DNA of 39,492 bases from contig JAJPHE010000072.1 in assembly GCA_021325435.1 (NCBI GenBank), positions 65,666 to 105,157 of the forward strand, in the 5' to 3' direction. Of this stretch, positions 26,972 through 31,705 are shown piece after piece (within the stretch, counting starts at the first letter, position 1; each line of letters begins with the position of its first letter). This DNA is from Actinomycetota bacterium. GTDB taxonomy: Bacteria > Actinomycetota > Acidimicrobiia > Acidimicrobiales > JAJPHE01. Position numbers and translations under genes: made by a program. The notes under the pieces were generated by a model. That model was not told where the DNA came from. It saw only the letters and a list, made by a program, of their open reading frames with translations, and did no database searches.

Positions 26972-27847
26972 TTGCTCACCCTGGTCCTGCCGAAGGGCTC
27001 CCTCGAGCGGTCGACCCTCGAGCTGTTCGAAGCGGCCGATCTGACCGTGCGGCGCAGCTCCGAGGTGGACTACCGCGCCTCGATCGACGACCACCGCATC
27101 GCCGACGTACGCATCCTGCGACCCCAGGAGATCCCGCAGTACGTGGCCGAGGGCTTGTTCGATCTCGGCATAACCGGGCGCGACTGGATCGAGGAGACCG
27201 GAGCCGAGGTGGTGAGCCTCGGCGAGCTGCGCTACTCCAAGGCCAGCGCCCAGCCCATCCGCATCGTCCTCGCCGTGGCCGGCGACTCGTCGGCCCAGAC
27301 CGTCGCCGACCTGGCGGACGGGATCAAGATCGCCACCGAGTATCCCGAGCTGACCCGCCGGTTCTTCGAGAAGCACGGCATCACCGCCGACATCCGCCTC
27401 TCCTACGGCGCCACCGAGGCCAAGGTGCCCGACATCGTGGACGCCGTGGTCGAGCTGACCGAGACGGGCCGGGCGCTACGGGCGGCCGGGCTGCGCATCA
27501 TCGAGACGCTGCTGGTCTCCAACACCGAGCTGGTGGCCAACCCCGAGGCGGCCCAGGACGGTGAAAAGCGCCACGCCATGGGCCAGATCCTCACCCTCCT
27601 GCAGGGCGCCCTCGAGGCCCGCGACAAGGTGCTGGTGAAGCTGAACGTGTCAGCCGATCAGCTGGAGGCGGTCATCGGACTGCTGCCGGCCATGAAGTCT
27701 CCGACCGTCTCGGAGCTGTCGGGGGGCGGAGGCTTCGCGGTGGAGACGGTGGTGCCCAAAGAGGAGATCAACGTGCTCATCCCGGCCCTCAAGGACCGGG
27801 GCGCCAGCGACATCATCGAGCTGCCCATCTCCAAGATCGTCCACTGA
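26972..27847 (+). CDS. hisG: ATP phosphoribosyltransferase, long form
   Basis: HisG (291 residues) performs the first step of histidine synthesis, joining ATP and PRPP. It is the long form with a C-terminal ACT-like regulatory domain (about residues 210-285), so it should be feedback-inhibited by histidine without HisZ. Motifs are LVLPKGSLERSTLELF, RPQEIPQYVAEGLFDLGITG, IKIATEYPELTRRFFEKHG and AKVPDIVDAVVELTETGRAL (PRPP site). The TTG at 26972 directly abuts the ribH stop. In many actinobacteria hisE lies immediately upstream; it is not here. The stop shares one base with the following small gene. Confidence 0.95.
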   Translation: MLTLVLPKGSLERSTLELFEAADLTVRRSSEVDYRASIDDHRIADVRILRPQEIPQYVAEGLFDLGITGRDWIEETGAEVVSLGELRYSKASAQPIRIVLAVAGDSSAQTVADLADGIKIATEYPELTRRFFEKHGITADIRLSYGATEAKVPDIVDAVVELTETGRALRAAGLRIIETLLVSNTELVANPEAAQDGEKRHAMGQILTLLQGALEARDKVLVKLNVSADQLEAVIGLLPAMKSPTVSELSGGGGFAVETVVPKEEINVLIPALKDRGASDIIELPISKIVH

Positions 27848-28083
27848 TGCCCCGGGGGGCGGTGGTGAGCTTCGACGACCAGCGCGGCCTGGGTGAGGTG
27901 GCCGATGCCGGAGGGCAGCGTTACCCGTTCCACTGCACGGCGATCGCCGACGGGACCCGCACCATCGCCGCCGGCACCCATGTCGACTTCGAGGTGGTGG
28001 CCGGCCACCTGGGTCGGTGGGAGGCGGCCGGCATCACTCCGGTGGGCGACGGGCCCCCTGCACCTGCACGAACGCCAGCCTGA
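27847..28083 (+). CDS. Small cold-shock-domain-like protein
   Basis: A 78-residue protein whose frame reads like a divergent cold-shock domain. It has GAVVSFDDQRGLGEV in place of the usual GxVKWFNxxKGFGFI, YPFHCTAI in place of VFVHxSAI, a central GTRTIAAGTHVDFEVV, and a final GRWEAAGITPV strand. The two aromatic RNA-binding motifs (RNP1 and RNP2) are largely lost, so nucleic-acid binding is doubtful. The start ATG shares a base with the hisG stop (TGATG), which supports real, coupled translation. The last 50 bases overlap the 3' end of the convergent DUF1844 gene, and the proline/alanine-rich tail there is probably unconstrained. Function is unknown. Confidence 0.75.
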   Translation: MPRGAVVSFDDQRGLGEVADAGGQRYPFHCTAIADGTRTIAAGTHVDFEVVAGHLGRWEAAGITPVGDGPPAPARTPA

Positions 28084-28432
28084 TCTGGGCCAGCCCGTCG
28101 CGCAGCGTCGCCTCCTCCTCGCCCAGCCGGCCCTCCAACCCCTCGACCAGCGCCGCCATGGCGTCCACGGCCAGGCGGGCGGCGTCGAGGTTCGGCGGGT
28201 CGTGCGACAGGTGCAGGGCGGCCAGCTCGAACAGCCCGTAGCAGTGGTTGCCGACGACCGCTTCGACCGGGGCGTCGGCCAGTTGCCGGCGCAGCTCCTC
28301 GAGGGGGTCCTCGCCGGACGGCGGCGGGGAGGCCGGGTCGGCGGAGCCCGGGGCCCGACCCGGTGGTTCGGAAGGGTCGGGGGACCCGCGGCCCACCGGC
28401 CGCTCGCCTCCAGGAGTCCAGAGACTGCTCAT
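28034..28432 (-). CDS. DUF1844 family protein, divergent from infC
   Basis: The only minus-strand gene (132 residues). The N-terminus MSSLWTPGGERPVGR is followed by a low-complexity Pro/Ser/Gly stretch. The conserved helical domain then runs LEELRRQLADAPVEAVVGNH, GLFELAALHLSHDPPNLDAA, AVDAMAALVEGLEGRLGEEE, LRDGLAQIRLAFVQV. These are hallmarks of DUF1844 proteins, which are found next to infC in many actinobacteria and have no assigned function. The start was placed at the ATG 28432-28430 because the conserved MSSLWTP begins there and a TAGGGT -10 lies 7 bases upstream; the frame opens 7 codons earlier. The 3' end overlaps the small plus-strand gene by 50 bp. Confidence 0.88.
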   Translation of the reverse strand: MSSLWTPGGERPVGRGSPDPSEPPGRAPGSADPASPPPSGEDPLEELRRQLADAPVEAVVGNHCYGLFELAALHLSHDPPNLDAARLAVDAMAALVEGLEGRLGEEEATLRDGLAQIRLAFVQVQGARRPPE

Positions 28433-28445
28433 CACTGCTACCCTA
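28433..28445 (-). promoter_or_regulatory. Predicted leaderless promoter of the DUF1844 gene
   Basis: Read on the minus strand, TAGGGT (28445-28440) is followed by seven bases and then the ATG at 28432. This is the same layout as the aroC, mihF and def promoters. The hexamer overlaps the plus-strand TACCCT by five bases. Confidence 0.5.
28439..28444 (+). promoter_or_regulatory. Predicted -10 of the infC-rpmI-rplT promoter
   Basis: TACCCT on the plus strand shares five bases with the divergent TAGGGT. A transcription start around 28451 would give an infC leader of about 157 bases. An alternative weak -10 is CACAAT at 28451. No clear -35 is seen for either. Confidence 0.4.
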
Positions 28446-28607
28446 CGCGGCACAATCAGGAATGGAAGCGGGGCCGGCTGTCCATCACAGCCCCCACCCG
28501 CCCGTGCCGGTGACGGTTGCGAGGCGGGTTGTCGCCGGACGGCGGGCGCCTCGTTTTCAGCGCCCGCCGTTTCGCGTTCGGCGGGGTTCGACCAGGAGGT
28601 TCAGCGC
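28446..28607 (+). promoter_or_regulatory. Structured 5' leader of infC with competing hairpins
   Basis: This non-coding region can form three stems. ACCCGCC (28496-28502) pairs with GGCGGGT (28523-28529). ACGGCGGGCGC (28539-28549) pairs perfectly over 11 bp with GCGCCCGCCGT (28560-28570), followed by TT, which is terminator-like. CCCGCCG (28563-28569) pairs with CGGCGGG (28579-28585). The second and third stems share bases 28563-28569 and exclude each other. An AGGAGG ribosome-binding site (28594-28599) follows. The arrangement suggests an attenuator for the IF3-L35-L20 operon; the ligand is unknown, though L20 is the regulator in Bacillus. Confidence 0.6.
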
Positions 28608-29228
28608 ATAGCAACTGCACCCATCACCAACGAGCCCAGGATCAACGAGAGGATCCGGGCCCGCGAGGTCCGTCTCGTCGATGCCGACGGCAAGCAGCTG
28701 GGCATCAAGCCGCTGCCGGAGGCCCTCCACATCGCCCGACAGGTCGACCTCGACCTGGTGGAGGTGGCCCCCCAGGCGGTACCGCCGGTCTGCCGCATCA
28801 TGGACTACGGGAAGTTCAAGTTCGATACGGCTCAGCGGGCCAAGGAGTCCCGGCGCAAGGCCAGCAACGTCAGCATCAAGGAGATGAAGTACCGGCCCAA
28901 GATCGGGCCCGGTGACTTCGACACCAAGACCCGCCAGGTCGCCCGCTTCCTCGGAGACGGTCACAAGGTGAAGGTGACGATCATGTTCCGGGGTCGTGAG
29001 ATGAGCCACCCCGAGCTCGGCAAGAAGATCCTCGACCGGGTCGCCGAGCAGGTTGGCGAGGTGGGCAAGGTGGAGCTGCTGCCCAAGCTGGACGGCCGCA
29101 ACATGGTGATGGTGCTGGCCCCGGACCGCCGGGCCCAGCAGGCAGCAGCCAAGGACAAGGCGACGCCCGAGGGCGCGCCGGAGCCCGCGGTCGAGACCGC
29201 GAGCAGTGACGGGACGGAGGAGGCCTAG
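28608..29228 (+). CDS. infC: Translation initiation factor IF-3 (ATA start codon)
   Basis: IF3 (206 residues from the proposed start) binds the 30S subunit and proofreads start-codon choice. The N-domain begins APITNEPRINERIRAREVRLV, the linker has RIMDYGKFKFD, and the C-domain has KEMKYRPKIGPGDFDTK, KVTIMFRGREMSHPELG and DGRNMVMVLAP. A C-terminal Ala/Glu-rich tail follows. No ATG, GTG or TTG lies in frame close upstream. An ATA at 28608 sits exactly 8 bases after AGGAGG, just before the conserved N-terminus. Rare start codons (AUU in E. coli) are a known feature of infC and allow IF3 to repress its own synthesis. The stop directly precedes the rpmI GTG. Confidence 0.93.
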   Translation: MATAPITNEPRINERIRAREVRLVDADGKQLGIKPLPEALHIARQVDLDLVEVAPQAVPPVCRIMDYGKFKFDTAQRAKESRRKASNVSIKEMKYRPKIGPGDFDTKTRQVARFLGDGHKVKVTIMFRGREMSHPELGKKILDRVAEQVGEVGKVELLPKLDGRNMVMVLAPDRRAQQAAAKDKATPEGAPEPAVETASSDGTEEA

Positions 29229-29423
29229 GTGCCGAAGATGAAGACAGATCGAGGGGCGGCCAAGCGGTTCAAGGTGACCGGCACCGGACGGATCCGCCGC
29301 CGTCACGCCTTCCGCAACCACCTGCTCGAGAAGAAGGGCGCCCGCAGGCTGCGCCGGCTGGGCCACGAAGCCGAGGTGAGCGGCGGGGACCTCCGCCAGG
29401 TCAAGCGCCTGCTGGGTCTCTAG
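29229..29423 (+). CDS. rpmI: 50S ribosomal protein L35
   Basis: L35 (64 residues) is a small, very basic large-subunit protein. The N-terminus MPKMKTDRGAAKRFKVTGTG and the RRHAFRNHLLEKKGARRLRRL segment are characteristic. The GTG at 29229 immediately follows the infC stop, and the GGAGGAGG in the last infC codons serves as the ribosome-binding site, so translation is probably coupled. Confidence 0.97.
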   Translation: MPKMKTDRGAAKRFKVTGTGRIRRRHAFRNHLLEKKGARRLRRLGHEAEVSGGDLRQVKRLLGL

Positions 29424-29450: not shown

Positions 29451-29831
29451 ATGGCCAGGGTCAAGCGCGCCGTCCAGGGACGGAAGCATCGCCGGGCAGT
29501 TCTGGAGAAGGCCCAGGGCTACTACGGCAACAAGAGCCGCAGCTTCCGGGCGGCCAACGAGCAGGTCATGCACTCGTTGCAGTACGCCTATCGCGACCGG
29601 CGGGCCCGCAAGGGAGACTTCCGCCAGCTGTGGATACAACGGATCAACGCCGCCACCCGCCTCCACGGCGTGTCCTACAGCCGGTTCATCGCCGGGCTGC
29701 GGGCCGCCGGGGTGGAGGTGGATCGCAAGGTCCTCGCCGACCTGGCCGTCACCGACCCGGGCGCCTTCGCCCGACTGGTCGAGGTGGCCACCGCGGCGAC
29801 CGGTGAGGACGCAGGGGAGCGCGCCAGCTGA
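29451..29831 (+). CDS. rplT: 50S ribosomal protein L20
   Basis: L20 (126 residues) binds 23S rRNA early in assembly. Motifs are [60 protein letters not shown] and [20 protein letters not shown]. The ATG follows AGGAGG at a 4-base spacing. In Bacillus and E. coli, L20 represses its own operon, which is relevant to the leader upstream of infC. A short acidic C-terminal tail ([13 protein letters not shown]) extends beyond the usual end. Confidence 0.97.
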
Positions 29832-29905: not shown

Positions 29906-30646
29906 GTGGCGGAGCGGGCGTTCGTCGCGGAGGGGCCCAAGCTGCTCGAGGAGGCCCTGGTGGCCGGGGCGGCGGTGGAGTCGGTGTACTGGTCGGCCGG
30001 GGCGCCACCGGCGCTCCTCGAACAGGCCGGCGAGGCAGGAGCCCAGCTCTACGAGGTCGAGGCGGCAACCATCGAGCGGGTCGCCGACTCGGTGAGCCCC
30101 CAACCGGTGCTGTCGGTGGTCGCCACCGTCGACCGGCCCCTCACCGCCCTGCAGTCGGCCCGACTGGTGGTGGTGCTTGCCGGCGTGGCCGACCCGGGCA
30201 ACGCCGGAACCGCGGTGCGGGCCGCACTCGCCGCCGGAGCCGAGGGGGTCGTCTTCGCCGGCAGCACCGTCGACCCGTACAACCCCAAGACGGTGCGGTC
30301 TACGGCCGGCACCCTGTTCCGCCTGCCGATCGTCGTCTCCCCCGATGCGCCCGGAGTCCTCCACCAGCTGGGGGAGTGGGGGATGCGCCGCCTCGGAGCC
30401 GTGTCCACCGGGGGGCTCGACTACGCCGAGCGCGACCTGACCCAGCGCACCGCCCTGGTCCTCGGCAACGAGGCCCACGGCCTCGGCGCCGCCGTTCTGG
30501 CCGAGCTCGACGAGCTGGTGTCCATCCCGATGGCCGGCGGGGTCGAGTCGCTCAACGTCGGGGTGGCCGCCGCTGTCCTCTGCTTCGAGGCGTCCCGCCA
30601 GGCCAGGTGTCGCCAGCCCGTCGTCTCGGCGCGCCCGGAGGGCTGA
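29906..30646 (+). CDS. SpoU/TrmH-family RNA 2'-O-methyltransferase
   Basis: A 246-residue (from GTG) SPOUT-fold methyltransferase that uses S-adenosylmethionine to methylate ribose in rRNA or tRNA. The N-terminal substrate-binding domain starts RAFVAEGPKLLEEAL. The trefoil-knot domain has motif 1 VVVLAGVADPGNAGTAVRAA, motif 2 TALVLGNEAHGL and motif 3 SIPMAGGVESLNVGVAAAV. GTG 29906 has GGAGG 9 bases upstream. However, the frame stays open back to the rplT stop, and the upstream codons (HHRVQRLRRLLARRSARV) look like the usual N-terminal helix of the family. A CTG at 29828 overlapping the rplT stop is therefore an alternative start. Position after rplT and before pheS is common. Confidence 0.88.
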   Translation: MAERAFVAEGPKLLEEALVAGAAVESVYWSAGAPPALLEQAGEAGAQLYEVEAATIERVADSVSPQPVLSVVATVDRPLTALQSARLVVVLAGVADPGNAGTAVRAALAAGAEGVVFAGSTVDPYNPKTVRSTAGTLFRLPIVVSPDAPGVLHQLGEWGMRRLGAVSTGGLDYAERDLTQRTALVLGNEAHGLGAAVLAELDELVSIPMAGGVESLNVGVAAAVLCFEASRQARCRQPVVSARPEG

Positions 30647-31705
30647 GTGGACCCCCTCGATGGCCTGCCCGACGCCGTGCTGGTGCTCGACGCCGACCGC
30701 AAGGTCGTCGGGGCCAACCAGGCCGCCGCCGCCCTCACCGGCTACGGGAAGGCGGAGATGGCCGGCAGGGCCCTCCACGAGCTGCTGTCGCCCCACGACG
30801 ACGACGGGCGGGCGCTGCTTGCCGACGGCTGGCCGCGGGCGGCCAACCTGCGCTCGGTGCGCGGGCTCCCCGAACAGGCGGTGACGGTGCGGCGCGCCGA
30901 CGGGTCCGAGCTGCGCACCTTCGTCACCGGCTCGTACCGGCGCGACGCCGAGGGAGCCGTCGCCGGGGCGTCCCTCGTCCTGCGCGACGCCCACCGCCGC
31001 CGCCAGCTGGCGGAGGCCAGCGCCGAGGTCGTGTCCACCGTCAGCCACGAGCTGCGCTCGCCGCTCACGTCGGTGAAGGGCTACACGACCCTGTTGCTCA
31101 ACCGGTGGGAGCGGATCGGCGACGACGACAAGCGCATGATGCTCGAGCAGATCCACCACGACGCCGACCGGGTCACCCGGCTCATCACCGAGCTGCTCGA
31201 CATCAGCCGGATGGCCTCCGGAAGGCTGGTGCTCCGCCGCCAGATGGTGGACCTGCCCGAGCTGATCACCGGCGTGGTCGAGAAGCTCAAGATGGAGTAC
31301 CCCGACATGACGGTGGACTTCGACTTCCCCCCCGGCATGCCCAAGGCCTACGCCGACCCCGACAAGCTCGTCCAGGTGGTCACCAACCTGGTGGAGAACG
31401 CCTGCAAGTACGCCTCGCCCGTCGGGCTACGCATCTCGGCCTCGGCCACCCCCGACGACATCGCCGTCTCGGTGGCCGACCGCGGCGAGGGCATCCCCGC
31501 CGAGGATCTGCCCAAGGTCTTCACCCGGTTCTTCCGCCGCAGCGAGGGACGGCCCACCGGCTCGGGCCTCGGCCTGTGGATCAGCCGCGGTCTGGTCGAC
31601 GCCCACGGCGGAGAACTGGCGGTGTCGTCCGTCCCCGGGCAAGGCTCGGTGTTCAGCTTCACCCTGCCGCTTTCCGCCTTCGAGGACACCCACCCCAACC
31701 CGTGA
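30647..31705 (+). CDS. Soluble PAS-domain sensor histidine kinase, no partner regulator nearby
   Basis: A 352-residue kinase with no membrane segment. A PAS domain (about 5-115) is followed by a HisKA dimerisation domain with phospho-acceptor His134 (in STVSHELRSPLTSVKGY). The HATPase domain has the N box NLVENACKY (247-255), the G1 box VADRGEGIP (about 276-284), an F-box-like FTRFFRR and the G2 box TGSGLGLWIS (304-313). All catalytic motifs are intact, so it should be an active kinase that reads a cytoplasmic signal. No response regulator lies in the window. It is sealed between the methyltransferase (stop TGA, GTG immediately after) and pheS (GTGA overlap), so it is expressed with translation genes. 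Confidence 0.93.
   Translation: MDPLDGLPDAVLVLDADRKVVGANQAAAALTGYGKAEMAGRALHELLSPHDDDGRALLADGWPRAANLRSVRGLPEQAVTVRRADGSELRTFVTGSYRRDAEGAVAGASLVLRDAHRRRQLAEASAEVVSTVSHELRSPLTSVKGYTTLLLNRWERIGDDDKRMMLEQIHHDADRVTRLITELLDISRMASGRLVLRRQMVDLPELITGVVEKLKMEYPDMTVDFDFPPGMPKAYADPDKLVQVVTNLVENACKYASPVGLRISASATPDDIAVSVADRGEGIPAEDLPKVFTRFFRRSEGRPTGSGLGLWISRGLVDAHGGELAVSSVPGQGSVFSFTLPLSAFEDTHPNP

Follow-up and report, generated by a model that had tools for sequence, protein, structure and literature searches.

The leader studied here lies in a window (the whole stretch of DNA that was analysed, 39,492 nucleotides) that is part of an Acidimicrobiales genome of 73% GC. Pfam matches place the genes infC, rpmI and rplT directly downstream of the leader, and the following features define the locus:

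28439-28444, plus strand: TACCCT, probable -10 element of the infC promoter (recurrence of TA[CG]CCT)
28594-28599, plus strand: AGGAGG, Shine-Dalgarno sequence of infC (read from the sequence)
28608-29228, plus strand: infC, encoding IF3 (Pfam IF3_N/IF3_C; start codon ATA)
29229-29423, plus strand: rpmI, encoding L35 (Pfam PF01632)
29451-29831, plus strand: rplT, encoding L20, the presumed effector (Pfam PF00453)

The initial annotation had stated that only IF3, L35 and L20 follow the leader. Pfam bore out the three products, whereas the restriction to them failed, as more genes lie downstream on the same strand. A SpoU-type rRNA methylase gene (29906-30646) and then a PAS histidine kinase gene (30647-31705) follow rplT on the plus strand with short gaps, and both may share the infC-rpmI-rplT transcript. 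At the 5' end of infC no suitable ATG, GTG or TTG start was found; the gene starts with ATA at 28608, downstream of the AGGAGG. Non-standard starts were present in 90 of 94 scored relatives (44 ATA, 43 ATC and 3 ATT) and are thus so nearly universal that standard gene callers will mis-start infC. Such starts serve IF3 autoregulation, and ATC is found in Streptomyces (PMC5472188). This mode of control goes with an infC that begins AUU, AUC or AUA, and the AUA at 28608 is in line with IF3 self-control.

Simple consensus scans of the leader called no classical promoter or terminator. TACCCT at 28439-28444 is nevertheless the probable -10 element of infC, since TA[CG]CCT is common about 20-26 bases 5' of the AAG of the conserved core described below in many relatives. 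A divergent DUF1844-like gene (28037-28432, minus strand; 26.3 bits, slightly below the cut-off) starts about 7 bases from this element, in an arrangement that recurs in relatives. With that gene starting at 28432, the space up to infC holds the promoter (TACCCT from 28439) and some 155 bases of leader. A short cold-shock-domain-like ORF (27847-28083), also slightly below its Pfam cut-off, stands immediately after hisG and runs with its 3' end about 50 bases into the convergent DUF1844-like ORF.

The infC leaders of relatives share a core with a fixed motif order: AAG-N, a GC-rich hairpin (P1), one C, and ACCYG...CRGGU (P2). The elements of this core in the window are:

28463-28529, plus strand: L20-leader-like core comprising AAG, P1, linker C and P2 (model R1; pair covariation in 77 leaders)
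28466-28468, plus strand: unpaired AAG with a putative L20-contact AA dimer (conservation; AAG opens the core in RF00558 matches too)
28470-28474, plus strand: P1 5' arm, GGGGC (covariation)
28490-28494, plus strand: P1 3' arm, GCCCC (covariation)
28495, plus strand: linker C (motif order)
28496-28502, plus strand: P2 5' arm, ACCCGCC (covariation)
28523-28529, plus strand: P2 3' arm, GGCGGGT (covariation)

The interval delimited earlier began at 28496, which proved to be too far 3', as the conserved element opens about 33 bases upstream, at 28463. The third stem that had been described there (7 bp, 28496-28502/28523-28529) is present and is the conserved helix P2. Within the AAG, A4 and A5 are invariant and G6 is conserved at 90% or more.

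We employed a pattern scan for the core order with a score threshold of at least 10. This score was reached by 69% of the infC leaders of the order, 73% of other infC leaders and 37 of 48 further phylum-wide leaders; in controls it was reached by 0.7% and 0.3% of dinucleotide shuffles and by 0-4% of antisense, far-upstream and downstream stretches. Both in the order and in the phylum sample, a majority of infC genes have the core ahead of them. Since the pattern scan selects for pairing, a covariance model (R1) was built as a follow-up from 15 Acidimicrobiales leaders, none of them from the window's family and all originally found by the scan. Because MAFFT slips one column in P2 when registers are mixed, the seed was kept to one register and the remaining leaders were aligned by the model. 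R1 matched the window at 28463-28529 (33.1 bits, E = 3.3e-6; next best match 14.7 bits), about 66 of the 77 loci of the order, and 16 leaders outside the order at E < 0.04. Genome-wide prevalence estimated with R1 or R2 is a lower bound, as the first filter scores a small share of the candidates and missed the window itself. A 26.5-bit core match (L112, G000:C60:56434-56477) also lies elsewhere in the same genome, away from infC, and is either chance or a second site.

In the 77 aligned leaders, 97.1% of the cells pair and double-sided changes occur at 12 of 15 pairs (90 cells), values that none of 500 shuffles reached; this alignment was fitted to the model, so pairing and covariation are somewhat overstated. 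When the partner strand was slid out of register, pairing fell to 29-69% in the same 77 leaders, and a sequence-only alignment of 15 leaders agreed with the covariation result. Covariation, for which the initial annotation had proposed a check of the leader stems, was found for P1, P2 and the 11-bp hairpin downstream, the opposite of the outcome that it had named as speaking against its reading. Folding of the whole leader was barely better than that of shuffles (z = -1.49, 12/200), and on the single sequence alone the case for a leader element is weak.

Downstream of the core, the leader contains a terminator-like hairpin, hereafter hairpin C, together with strands that could compete with it or with its loop:

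28464-28473, plus strand: GGAAGCGGGG, strand able to pair with the hairpin C loop at 28549-28558 (duplex energy; covariation in relatives and swap test)
28539-28570, plus strand: 11-bp terminator-like hairpin C with the loop CTCGTTTTCA (shuffles, conservation, covariation)
28571-28582, plus strand: tail TTCGCGTTCGGC after hairpin C (T enrichment in relatives)
28563-28585, plus strand: 7-bp competing stem of the initial annotation (present in the window, without conservation)

The 11-bp stem (28539-28549/28560-28570) was confirmed as annotated, and it is conserved and covaries in relatives (35 double-change cells, 0/500 shuffles). No other perfect hairpin in the 39.5-kb window reaches 10 bp (loop 3-13), and of 2000 dinucleotide-shuffled versions of the leader, 3 reached 11 bp. 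Stems of at least 9 Watson-Crick pairs downstream of the core were present in 28 of 66 leaders of the order, compared with 1.4 expected; many leaders of the order carry no terminator-like hairpin. The tail in relatives is enriched in T, at 86, 54, 46 and 57% in positions 1 to 4 against a base rate of 18.5%, and is T-rich again at positions 8-11. The window's own tail, TTCGCGTT, begins TTCGCG and holds three consecutive T at most, the last stem base included, so that termination there may be weak. Intrinsic terminators were found in 19 of 20 leaders among relatives of one large-genome family (2.8 expected), in 15 of 26 leaders of an even phylum sample (2.1 expected) and in 14 of 32 leaders of another set (1.9 expected). 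Since ordinary intrinsic terminators occur at the same place across the phylum, transcription attenuation is the favoured reading for the window.

The initial annotation had proposed that hairpin C competes with a 7-bp stem that forms later. This stem is present (28563-28569/28579-28585), at a frequency near chance (shuffle p = 0.06), and its role as a conserved alternative fell away: the longest arm complement averaged 4.9 observed versus 4.3 expected in 28 leaders. A different pairing is conserved. In the window, GGAAGCGGGG at 28464-28473 pairs with CCUCGUUUUC at 28549-28558 over 10 bp, including 3 G-U pairs, with a duplex energy of -18.1 kcal/mol versus -13.4 in shuffles (0/100). Complementarity between the AAG strand and a box at or near the hairpin C loop is retained across genomes while the sequences change (GGAAAGC/GCUUUCC, GGGAAGC/GCUUCCC, AGGAAGC/GCUUCCU, GCGAAG/CUUCGC and CAAGUGAGG/CCUCGCUUG in different genomes), and at position -1 we counted 40 Watson-Crick matches versus 24.0 expected. 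In a swap test, 49 of 66 genomes had a strand of their own that paired better than the median strand taken from the others (Wilcoxon p = 1.8e-5, kinship ignored). The loop pairing is weaker outside the order (10/43 at p <= 0.05). In the window it is incompatible with a closed 11-bp stem, and the energies are -44.5 for P1, P2 and hairpin C together versus -22.8 for the alternative, or -37.5 if the 7-bp stem is included. Since the former wins at equilibrium, an anti-terminator effect could only be a kinetic one. P1 and the putative L20 site also draw on the AAG strand, so L20 binding and loop pairing should be mutually exclusive.

Textbooks present the autoregulation of the infC operon by L20 through a leader RNA, and it is said to occur in Firmicutes only. 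In B. subtilis the protein attaches at the H1/H2 junction and stabilises a terminator, H4, ahead of the same operon (PMC6097659). The L20-interacting RNA of that organism has been called "narrowly distributed to the Firmicutes" (PMC6097659). The window's leader had been described as having no obvious resemblance to the Bacillus L20 leader; once the bases 5' of 28496 are included, it does resemble it (AAG-N-P1-C-ACCYG...P2...CRGGU). It shares with RF00558, the Firmicutes family, the infC-rpmI-rplT operon, the order AAG-N-P1-C-ACCYG-P2-CRGGU and, as far as the window's terminator-like stem goes, a hairpin at the 3' end. The core order occupies 28466-28529 in the window and recurs in the RF00558 matches L102, L107 and L125; of the 3' terminator, the window has the 11-bp hairpin and a short T tail, on which the scanner made no call. 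The two differ in that P1 is GGGG/CCCC in the window and AGAAGC/GCUUCU in Firmicutes, that P2 of the order has a conserved inner CCAC/GUGCG, and that the loop of the actinobacterial terminator-like hairpin has its complement in the AAG strand.

Searches of the window with RF00558 and Rfam, at gathering thresholds and at E <= 10, returned chance matches only and no L20_leader match, and RF00558 exceeded its cut-off (gathering score 58.7 bits) in 0 of 148 genomes of the window's class. The Firmicutes loci L102 and L107 carry RF00558 matches slightly below cut-off with the order AAG-N-P1-C-ACCUG...AGGU, and R2 did not find either of them. L125, an infC leader of the window's class, was matched on the same bases by RF00558 (E = 9.4e-4 on the leader) and by R2 (24.5 bits, E = 0.0044). 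Because R2 misses L102 and L107, what links the phyla is the layout they have in common, together with L125. Sub-threshold RF00558 matches in low-GC genomes of the class (L120-L124) were treated as chance, as no infC stands at those loci. Our verdict is that the window's leader is a variant that probably acts like the RF00558 L20 leader and falls outside RF00558 membership.

Comparison with other systems gives further context. The L20 operator of E. coli (rpmI-rplT) is, as proposed here, autoregulatory through rRNA mimicry and includes a long-range pairing; unlike the reading favoured here, its control is translational, acts on rpmI-rplT and spares infC (PMC10931766). A deltaproteobacterial L20 r-leader candidate of Eckert and Weinberg (2020), which is claimed to imitate the rRNA site's AA dimer and two G-C pairs, has another scaffold and belongs to another phylum; these authors gave the AA dimer and two G-C pairs as the shared L20 determinants (PMC7247131). 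In M. tuberculosis, infC has a 326-nt 5' UTR in which reads exceed those of the coding sequence 2.6-fold in exponential and 4.9-fold in stationary phase, and the study suggested control analogous to B. subtilis (PMC3207917). The read excess fits attenuation; that study assigns no ligand, and the likeness drawn here is one of read data. E. coli 23S rRNA has a single instance of the order AAGA-GGG-loop-CCC-AG-ACC...GGU, at 972-1004. This position is near H40, which we take to be the region of the L20 site. As the order turns up somewhere in shuffled 23S rRNA 9% of the time, only its position near H40 makes the match telling. No 23S rRNA of the genome itself turned up in its assembly.

We consider it probable (about 0.72) that the infC leader (~28452-28607) attenuates transcription in response to L20 and is a divergent actinobacterial form of the L20 leader known from Firmicutes. 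The earlier suggestion of an attenuator and of an actinobacterial autoregulatory RNA is supported by the conservation, the covariation and the terminators at the same place in relatives. When rRNA is short, free L20 would be left over and would bind the P1/P2 junction (AAG and the ACC/GGU pairs), a putative mimic of its 23S rRNA site. Bound L20 would keep GGAAGCGGGG in P1, hairpin C (28539-28570) would form undisturbed, and RNA polymerase would stop near 28571-28580, ahead of infC-rpmI-rplT. Without L20, GGAAGCGGGG would pair with the emerging hairpin C loop and hinder the terminator, and the operon would be read. Conservation, the covariation of the three stems, the T-rich tail and the covarying loop complementarity are computed; L20 as the ligand, termination, the direction of the switch and its kinetics are what we infer.

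An alternative of low but appreciable probability retains the same L20-binding core and places control at translation, with L20 on P1/P2 releasing a downstream strand that sequesters the infC ribosome-binding site. On inspection, L003, a member of the window's family, has a leader with no terminator and with CTCCC...GGGAG across the ribosome-binding site, and in the L056-L065 group CCTCGCTTG is complementary to both CAAGTGAGG and GCAAGGAG. However, hairpin C of the window ends 37 bases 5' of the infC start codon and leaves AGGAGG outside and free, the tail in relatives is T-rich, and most other families have clear terminators. That another ligand, such as IF3, L35 or the ribosome itself, acts on the conserved core is less probable still. 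The operon also codes for IF3 and L35, and IF3 is autoregulated in E. coli (PMC5472188); yet IF3 control acts via the start codon (PMC5472188), which is separately present here, and the core is laid out like the L20 leader, in which the same junction is bound by L20 in B. subtilis (PMC6097659).

A ribosome-stalling attenuator that codes for a peptide appears very improbable. The frame from ATG 28462 is open until a TAG at 28611 that overlaps the infC start, although any ATA-GC start has an overlapping TAG built in. No ribosome site stands at a proper distance from this ATG, which on inspection is absent from L003; paired bases rather than codons are conserved, and a conserved ORF was not seen. 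We give least credence of all to chance hairpins in a leader of 73% GC: G+C-rich inverted repeats are frequent and the whole-leader z-score is low, and against this stand the covariation, the conservation and the model matches.

Returning to the proposed L20-responsive attenuator, its parts vary among relatives. L003, the closest relative in the window's family, keeps the core and lacks the terminator-like hairpin; at 1453-1500 its ribosome-binding site lies inside a hairpin. In L056, L058 and L065 the core is present and, in place of a terminator, a strand pairs with the ribosome-binding site. These leaders may mark a natural change from control of transcription to control of translation. On inspection, L014 and L039 carry a terminator-like hairpin, GGCGGGCGTTGCGTGCCGACGTCCGCC, upstream of infC and have no L20 core; the sensing part may have been lost naturally there. 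Such differences indicate that the platform changes fast while the core mostly stays. We suggest, tentatively and at somewhat less than even odds, a distinct Actinomycetota design in which L20 and the apical loop of the terminator compete for the AAG strand, the loop serving as anti-terminator sensor, and in which the L20 core of one order drives either a terminator or sequestration of the ribosome site.

For Actinobacteria, neither an L20 nor an infC leader appears in a 2020 survey (PMC7247131), our searches of literature accessible without subscription found no actinobacterial L20/infC leader, and none of the Rfam models reports the element in the Actinomycetota loci scanned. We found the core in Acidimicrobiia, Nocardioides, Saccharopolyspora, Brevibacterium, Coriobacteriia and others. 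Its presence throughout the phylum means either that the regulator is old and shared or that one rRNA site has been mimicked repeatedly. A covariance model of the actinobacterial leader could join Rfam, and the leader offers a testable hypothesis for the over-represented infC 5' UTR of M. tuberculosis.
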